Shown here piece by piece: positions 55,201 to 58,200 of a stretch of DNA of 64,000 nucleotides. The DNA lies in assembly GCA_018389105.1 (NCBI GenBank), contig JACATO010000132.1, positions 248,001 to 312,000 on the forward strand. Direction: 5' to 3'. Position 1 is the stretch's first letter. Each line of letters begins with the position of its first letter. Source of the DNA: Nautilus pompilius. Taxonomy: Eukaryota > Mollusca > Cephalopoda > Nautilida > Nautilidae. A program made the position numbers and the translations under genes. The notes below the pieces were generated by a model. It saw nothing but the letters and a program-made list of their open reading frames with translations, had not been told where the DNA came from and did not search any database.

Positions 55201-58200
55201 ATTTAAGAATCTGTCAAATACTGAAACTGATGATGAGTTTAAAGAGTTGACTTGAAAAAAAAATTATATTAAATTTAATGACTGCAATACATCAAAACTT
55301 AAAGATATCAGGTACTATTTTGGAGGGTTTCTTTTCCTCAAAATAACCCTGACCATAACACAAGGCAATCAAATCACTATGTTCATTACCATTGTAATAG
55401 AAGCATTACACCTTCAAAAAGGAAAAAAAGCCAGACCAAGTTATAAAATATCTCACTTCATGAAATCTGCCACATTACACTGAGGTACAAGGTTTCTGCT
55501 TCTCAGTTATTTATGGGTGGTCCTAATAGAACTTTTAACGCTGATTCCAAATATGGTTTCGTAATTTTTCTATCACCCATAGTTTTTGAGAAATGGAGTT
55601 TCTAATTTTCAGTATTTTCTCATAAGAGAGCATATATTGTGTGTATTATATTTTGAGTTTATATTATATTTCTTACACGTGTTATGATAATGCCATTACT
55701 AATGTACTTTTTCTTTTTCAGAGCAATTTTTTGATTTAATTCTTTAAAAATATGAATCGAAAGTGTGCTAATCCGACAGATTCCTTCTGTTACATATGTG
55801 GAGAAATGACCATGAGATCTCAAAGAAGAACAACGGCTGCACTTGTAAAAAAGCCTACGAACTTTACTTCGGATACAAGATAGGCGATCAGGACAAAGCG
55901 TGGGCACTGCATATCTGTTGCACCTCCTGTGCAGTTAACCTTCGGGCATTGCTCAAAGGAACCCGCAGGTCCATGTGATTCGGAGGGCCAATGATTTGGA
56001 GAGAACCACAAGACCATGTTAAGGATTGATATTTTTGCCTCAAAAATATTTCAGGTTTATCTGCTGAACACAAAACTAAAATTCAATATCCAAACCTTGC
56101 ATCAGTCATTTGACTAGTACATCACAACGAAAGTATTCCTGTTCCAACTGCTCCCAAGACATGGACATTGGACGAAGAAACTGAAGTTGACAAGTTAATG
56201 GATGTTCAAGAAGACACCGATGCAGACTACAAGCCTCCAGAATCAAAATAACCGCAATTCATTACACAGAGTATGTTTAATGATCTTGGTAGGGATTTAA
56301 ATTTGCCAAAGAAAAAAGCTGAACTTTTGGGATCCAGGTTGCAGGAATGGAATTTATTGGAAAAAGATACAAACATATCTGCTTTCCGTACACGTCAAAA
56401 AGATTTAGTCAAGTTCTTTTCCTTTGATGAGGGGTTCTGTTATTGCAATGATGTTAATGGTTTGATGGCAGCATTCAGTCATGAATATAATCCTGAAGAA
56501 TGGCATTTTTTAATTAACTCTTCCAAACTGAGCCTTAAAGCTGTCTTGTTGCATAATGGAAATAAATATCCCTCCATTCCTATTGGGCACGCCATCCACA
56601 TGAAAGAATCCTATGTTAACATGAAGACTATTCTTAAACAATTAAACTACAACAAATTTCTCTGGCACATATGTGGCGATTTAAAAGTTTTGGCATTACT
56701 TCTGGGCATGCAGCTCGGATATACTAAATTCTGTTGTTTCCTACATGAATGGGACAGTAGGGTCAGAGAATCGCATTACATTGTTCAAAAATGACCTGCT
56801 CGTGAAATTGTTCCAGGACAAAAGAATGTTTCTCATCAACCATTGGTGGACCCAAAATAAATATGCTTGCCACCACTTCATATTAAACTAGGACTGATAA
56901 AGAACTTTGTGAAAGCAATGAACAAAAATGGATGCAGATTCAAACATTTGAAGCAAAATTTCCCTCGTATTAGTGAGGCAAAGATAAAAGAAGGGATTTT
57001 TGTTGGTCTCCAAATTAGAGAACTCATGAGAGACAAACAGTTTGATGCAATCTAAAGAGACAAGGTGAAAGAGCAGCATGGAATGCCTGTCATCATTAAT
57101 GTTTTTGGAAACATCAAAGCTCCAAACTATGAACTGGTGCATGAAATGATTGAGACCTATAAACAAATGGGATTCAATATGTCCTTGAAGATCCATTTTA
57201 TGCAATCTTATTTAGATTTCTTCCCAGAGAACCTTGGAGATGTAGGTGACGAGCATGGTGAAAGCTTTCACCAGAAAATTTCAACCATGGAAAAACACTA
57301 TCAAGGCTGGTGGGATCATGCAATGTTAGCCGATTACTGCTGGACACTAATGAGAGATGCTCCTGAAGCAAGCTACAAATGGAAATCCCTCGCCAAGAAA
57401 TTTTACATCAATAATAATAAATTTTTTGTAATTTCCTTATATGTTTAAACCCAATTTTCTCAATAACTAACAGTAATAGCACAATCCAATGACCATATTT
57501 GGAATCGGTGTCAAAATGCTATAGGAAACACCCATCAAAATGCAAGAAACAAAAAAAAGTTAAAATTTGTTTCTGAACAGTCATAACATCCAAAAAATCC
57601 ATTTCTGTTCACAACTATGACTTAGAATGGTAATATAAGGGTGAAGTGGTTAAGGTTTGTAGTAAGGAAGTGAGCTTACCCAAGGTTTAACTTTATATTT
57701 AGGGGTCCTGGACAAAGAATGCTTTAGGGTCCCCACCCCACCTTGTGCTCCGAAAGCGCCTATCCATGTAACCTTTTGTCTTATGACCTTACACACATGC
57801 CTAAAAGGAATGTGCTGTGGCCTCTTCTATTGTTCATTACAAGAGTTTTGTAAAATATTTTGAATGTACAAAAAATAGTAGATTAACTAAAAAAAAAACA
57901 ATATTTTATATTTTCTTTAGATGTTAAATTTTAACAACAAAAATCCATCCACTTAAGAATCAGATATTCAGATATTTTTCAGACAGATTTTTAAAAAATA
58001 ATAACAGTAACTTTATATCAAAAAAGTAGAAAACCATGCATGTTCTCAAACATTCTTTTTAATTTGAAGTTTGCTACCAAAACATTTATAAATGAAAGGA
58101 TGGATGAATTGTCTCAGTGTTCTTATTAGTACTCATCTTTGTGTGAACGATATTAAACCATTTCACATACTTTCTATGATACTACTAGAAAAGAGAAGCC

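Follow-up and report, generated by a model that had tools for sequence, protein, structure and literature searches.

The locus and its element

The window, by which we mean the whole 64,000-nucleotide (nt) stretch of DNA analysed here, comes from Nautilus pompilius (GCA_018389105.1, contig JACATO010000132.1, positions 248,001-312,000 of the forward strand). At 55478..57582 it carries a decayed DNA transposon that is very probably a copy of a Chapaev3-group element (we put this at about 92%), the comparison with Chapaev3 being made by printed hallmarks and not by sequences. The element belongs, with good support, to a transposon group already known, and its relatives in this genome are many. 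Its parts are as follows, with labels such as L064 denoting individual genomic copies.

55478..57582, + strand: whole decayed element, probably of Chapaev3 type, ~2105 base pairs (bp); ends from an alignment of 28 copies, read in the window
55475..55477, unstranded: left target duplication TTA, from the window and the 26 of 29 copies with identical 3-bp flanks
57583..57585, unstranded: right flank, ATA where TTA would be expected (one mismatch), as read in the window
55478..55490, + strand: left terminal inverted repeat CACTGAGGTACAA, from the copy alignment and the window
57566..57582, - strand: right terminal inverted repeat, damaged, GACTGTTCAGAAACAAA in the window versus CACTGGGAAACAAA in L002
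55533..55593, + strand: left subterminal inverted arm, containing CTGATTCCAAATAT (the arm noticed in the original prediction for this DNA)
57456..57516, - strand: right subterminal inverted arm
55752..57448, + strand: transposase pseudogene, its frame broken into pieces, with homology to the open frames of L060 and L064
55752..55978, + strand: N-terminal cysteine-rich part (CxxC .. CxxC), broken
56507..56524, + strand: first catalytic Asp site, FLINSS (FIDSS in relatives; D to N in the window)
56672..56686, + strand: second catalytic Asp, CGDLK
56732..56752, + strand: C(2)C motif, CFLH in the window and CFLC in relatives
56876..56887, + strand: LH motif (LHIK)
57194..57211, + strand: H(4)H motif, HFMQSY in the window and HFLxSH in relatives
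57248..57274, + strand: Glu of GE(R/S)FHQ, presumed third catalytic residue from the RAG1-like order

The two inverted arms are 61 nt long, 74% complementary and 1862 nt apart, and the gene between them is broken into several frames. They share a 15-base block, GATTCCAAATATGGT, at 55543-55557, with its inverse at 57492-57506; GATTCCAAATAT is part of this block. The original prediction had remarked on this framing of a decayed gene, and the arms are real: copies of this stretch together with its arms lie throughout the genome (84-90% identical at the full-size places elsewhere), so the arrangement is beyond chance. The same prediction had placed the ends of the element at the arms (55513-57535). 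Among the 28 aligned copies, similarity continues outward past these two positions, by 35-47 bp, and stops at CACTG and CAGTG; hence the arms are subterminal, and the ends lie at about 55478 and 57582.

Near both ends of L002, L039, L059, L062 and L066 we found the block CTGATTYCAAA, which also occurs with one base changed at the left end of L061 and the right end of the window element, and which is common to two groups whose proteins are ~50% identical. Such subterminal blocks are possible candidates for a transposase-binding site. The copy L064 has a subterminal inverted repeat of its own (75 nt, 83%), in which GATTYCAAATAT was not found.

Termini, target duplication and recent movement

Copies were sought in the same genome, a search space of 727.6 Mb in 2558 contigs. 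The DNA search with the element's stretch scored 40 of 1422 first-look candidates, which makes its counts minimum values. One protein fragment, used as a query with 150 of 4072 candidates scored, brought out open frames of up to 634 amino acids in relatives ~50% identical. The 17-mer WTTACACTGGTCAACAA alone occurs 890 times in the genome, versus 0 for its reversed control.

Twenty-eight copies, the window copy included, were aligned with their flanks to define the ends. The left end reads CACTG exactly in 21 of them and the right end CAGTG exactly in 16, with both exact in 14, and these ends adjoin TTA or TAA. In the remaining aligned copies the end is decayed, changed by a base, truncated, different or missing, as at the right of L007, L043 and L048 and the left of L055. 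No poly(A) tail was seen at the aligned right ends, which close with CAGTG.

A flank test covered 46 copies, in 29 of which both ends were recognised by one pattern that itself requires CACTG. Identical 3-bp flanks border 26 of these 29 (TTA in 14, TAA in 12), as against a mean of 12.2 and a maximum of 21 of 29 in a mispaired-flank control, and identity over 4 bp or over 5 bp was found in 0 of 29. A precedes the duplication in 24 of 26 and T follows it in 23 of 26, giving the context aTTAt. Aligned with their flanks, the copies have the sharp boundaries and constant-length duplication by which the original prediction proposed to recognise a DNA transposon. Two copies, L051 and L052, have near-identical flanks and point to a segmental duplication in which the element was copied along.

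When the two flanks of each of 16 copies were joined and used as genome queries, uninterrupted empty sites came up for three: L073 (three sites at 100% and six more at 83-99%), L078 (96% and 97%) and L065 (80-85%, belonging to a repeat family). L064 and L065 match base for base over 2525 bp, differ in their flanks and have open 572-codon frames; transposition has therefore been recent. The proposal that the locus holds a DNA transposon is upheld by these ends, duplications, empty sites and identical copies.

The transposase and its signature

The coding region apparently consists of one exon. Eight elements of 2293-2515 bp (L059-L066) have stop-to-stop frames of 572-634 codons, and from the likely start the open frames of five relatives measure 545, 551, 554, 554 and 562 amino acids. 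No second frame of >120 codons was found inside the eight elements, and hence there is no separate transposase gene in them.

In the relatives, the signature residues follow the order D-D-C(2)C-LH-H(4)H-E. Conservation was scored over 60 distinct places, many of them decayed, and is given as kept over covered copies: the first Asp, D254, is kept in 55/60, C327-x2-C330 in 57/60 and 53/60, H376 of the LH motif in 53/59, H485-x4-H490 in 50/58 and 49/59, and E507 in 52/59. E507 is the presumed third catalytic acid, given its place in a RAG1-like order. Some open relatives still carry damaged motifs, for example at the second Asp in L061 and L066. Three N-terminal CxxC pairs are kept in most covered copies, which agrees with the Cys-rich N-terminus described originally; similarity of this part to zf-AD is weak, below the cut-off and seen in relatives only.

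In the window copy, the first catalytic Asp has become N, the second Cys H (CxxH) and the second His Y (HxxxxY). Because it has lost the signature in these three places, the signature is hard to see in the window, and the original statement that none of the known transposase signatures was present does not extend to the family. Judging from its frame breaks and lost signature residues, the window copy is dead and cannot make an active enzyme.

At H505, the first His of DEHGERFHQ, 42/59 covered copies have H and 9/59 have Q (L064, L080 and L082 among them); an essential role as a zinc ligand is therefore unlikely for this residue. A reading of [HQ]GERFH as the H(4)H motif was dropped, HFLxSH being kept even where [HQ]GERFH has Q, and D531 as the third acid was dropped together with it.

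Predicted fold and profile searches

RAG1 is the V(D)J recombinase, which shuffles vertebrate antibody genes, and Chapaev elements are kin of Transib and RAG1. A full-length structure model reached a predicted local distance difference test score (pLDDT) of 57 and a predicted template modelling score (pTM) of 0.47; a core model, built from the catalytic part alone with more divergent groups added, reached 75.5 and 0.70, respectively. Compared with 350,542 PDB chains, the core model gave seven matches at E<=0.001, namely six chains of RAG1/2 complexes, which we infer from their length to be RAG1, and one P element transposase. The top five are all RAG1/2-complex chains, with E 3.7e-5 to 1.4e-4 and TMq 0.47-0.52 (best 3.7e-5, TMq 0.52). 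The nearest solved structures to the predicted core are those of RAG1, and the match is one at the level of fold, not a close fit.

Pfam returned no family at its cut-off for this protein family. Transposase_21 (PF02992) had no match in the proteins, nor in the genome, where its control was also silent. Scans of viral contigs gave no relative, the viral fold library gave nothing at E<=0.001, and PDB sequence searches gave two matches each, to a Scarecrow-like protein, at E 0.4-1. The 13-mer CACTGGTCAACAA was not found among the literature matches listed for CACTGGTCAA or its longer form.

N-terminally deleted derivatives

The relatives fall into about seven groups, and these subfamilies were separated by eye, not by a tree; outside the group of L060, the core is 46-59% identical to that of L060. 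The L064 subfamily includes internal-deletion forms (L072-L078 and genome-wide) that lack roughly codons 1 to 200-220 and with them the N-terminal zinc-finger part. Exact genome matches number 134 for one deletion junction and 12 for a second (146 together), against 15 for a 25-mer inside the deleted part, exact-word counts that miss diverged copies. The examined forms with these two junctions have an open frame of 353-354 codons over the whole catalytic core, with the first Met 34-35 codons into the frame, and >50 of the 76 matches scored (from 8068 candidates) are frames of the deleted form whose protein identity is 100%.

Recent spread without selection is enough to explain this identity. 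Alternatively, the truncated protein could regulate or repress the full transposase, and the deleted forms could have spread for this reason, by analogy with KP of the P element, a truncated repressor; we consider this unlikely. Deletion derivatives are already mentioned in the available part of the Chapaev literature.

Proposed mechanism, classification and alternatives

The open relatives encode a single-frame transposase of ~555 amino acids: a cysteine-rich N-terminal part and, after it, a putative DDE core of RNase-H-like type that bears the C(2)C, LH and H(4)H motifs. This protein would bind the element at its CAC..GTG termini, and perhaps at the subterminal CTGATTYCAAA blocks, cut it out by a cut-and-paste route and insert it at aTTAt by a staggered cut, such that TTA is duplicated. 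A protein family for which Pfam has nothing at its cut-off, known to the original prediction just as repeated uncharacterised proteins, thereby receives a likely name and mechanism.

According to the available part of the printed description (PMC4079192), Chapaev elements have CAC/GTG termini and 3-4 bp duplications, and the Chapaev3 families, which include Merrow, Garfield and Conan, have a transposase with the motifs C(2)C, LH and H(4)H; their TWA duplication, confirmed by empty sites, has A before it and T after it in every case. The Nautilus elements have CAC..GTG termini, a 3-bp TWA duplication, the A/T insertion context (with exceptions, 24/26 and 23/26, set against the printed "always") and the C(2)C/LH/H(4)H motifs. 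D254, D308 and, presumably, E507 would complete a DDE triad in the RNase-H-like core suggested by the core model. The element was originally proposed to be undescribed, with possibly a new type of transposase; these hallmarks and a predicted core closest to RAG1 instead assign it, as far as the group is concerned, to a transposon family that already has a name.

Several observations weigh against this assignment. The comparison behind it was with printed hallmarks, and PF06918 (DUF1280), equated with Chapaev transposases in the available part of PMC3985635, has no match in the window-family proteins or their relatives; it was also not found in the genome, where the control was silent too and the result carries little weight. 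The single RNase-H-like Pfam name, PF21056, appeared at E 0.033 in 1/26 members. The full-length model has no PDB match at E<=0.001, with no RAG1 among the matches listed, and the fold comparison advised in the original prediction bore fruit for the core only, where the RAG1 alignments have a root-mean-square deviation of 9-11 Å and ~10% identity. The second Asp, D308, is kept in only 43/59 covered copies and replaced by N in 10, many of the copies in this set being decayed. As for the ends, the pattern missed 17/46 copies, 3/29 lack matching 3-bp flanks (L063 and the one duplicated place of L051 and L052), no empty site was found in the genome for 13/16 joined flanks, and the window copy, whose flanks are one base off (TTA versus ATA), does not itself display the duplication.

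The missing PF06918 match would suit a different branch of the CMCT clade, namely EnSpm/CACTA, ESTA, Lanisha or an unnamed sister group of Chapaev3, in which C(2)C, H(3-4)H, CA..TG ends and short duplications also occur. We regard such a lineage as quite improbable, since the combination of TWA between A and T, LH, CAC/GTG and ~2.3 kb is the one printed for Chapaev3 (PMC4079192, available part), whereas the animal CACTA relatives (TRC) are described with CCC ends and 2-bp repeats in the available part of PMC1636069. The lack of any Pfam family at the cut-off could likewise speak for a new transposase type or, as the original prediction also considered, for a non-catalytic passenger gene; with a known catalytic signature, a RAG1-like predicted core and a single long frame in each of L059-L066, the chance of either is very slight. 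A segmental duplicate of a host gene has in its favour that L051 and L052 share flanks, so that a copy was carried along in one duplication or more, but the termini that the copies have in common, their 3-bp duplications and the empty sites leave this reading, like that of a processed pseudogene, a negligible probability. The processed pseudogene was rejected on the shared termini and on right ends that close with CAGTG and not with the poly(A) tail that the original prediction had named as its mark.

As identical copies in different places indicate, the Nautilus genome holds an element, probably of Chapaev3 type and a cousin of the V(D)J recombinase, that has moved recently. This genome is therefore a fair one for studying transposase ends, the N-terminal part of the protein and internal-deletion derivatives. 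In sum, the original observation is partly confirmed and its interpretation partly supported.

Other transposon-like frames in the window

Elsewhere in the window, an open 616-codon frame at 23700-25550 has weak similarity to PF14291 (DUF4371; E 0.00035, below the cut-off), a family described, in the available part of the source, as including hAT transposases. On the minus strand, at 27285-27980, a frame with HTH_23 and HTH_38 above the cut-off and a weak match to the Sleeping Beauty HTH looks like a piece of a Tc1/mariner-type transposase.

Comparison with known systems

PIF/Harbinger elements have a 3-bp duplication of TWA type; the Nautilus family, with its C(2)C/LH/H(4)H motifs and its match in fold to RAG1, points elsewhere. 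Transib has a 5-bp target duplication, in contrast to the 3 bp found here. EnSpm/CACTA and TRC elements resemble the Nautilus family in their C(2)C/H(3-4)H kinship and short duplications, and differ from it in the ends and 2-bp repeats of TRC (PMC1636069, available part) and in Transposase_21, which is unmatched here. The wider CMCT clade is treated in PMC12730594, as far as its available part goes.

With RAG1 and Transib, the family has in common the order D-D-C(2)C-H(4)H-E, which in RAG1 runs D600, D708, C727/C730, H937/H942 and E962 (PMC4914335, available part), and among PDB chains the predicted core matches RAG1 best in fold. The spacing from the second Asp to the first Cys is 19 in both, whereas that from the second His to the Glu is 17 here and 20 in RAG1. 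Chapaev3 itself is placed with Transib and RAG1 and given an N-terminal zinc finger, Chapa, in the available part of PMC4411706; the Nautilus proteins have the pattern CxxC..CxxC..CxxC at their N-terminus in most covered copies.

Compared with the Chapaev3 elements in the available part of PMC4079192, the Nautilus elements carry long subterminal inverted arms, none of which are noted there. They are like Chapaev3 in their CAC..GTG ends, in TWA between A and T, in C(2)C/LH/H(4)H, and in a size of ~2.3 kb with ~556 amino acids in mostly one exon, the Chapaev3 element Garfield having 2,289 bp and encoding 556 amino acids.
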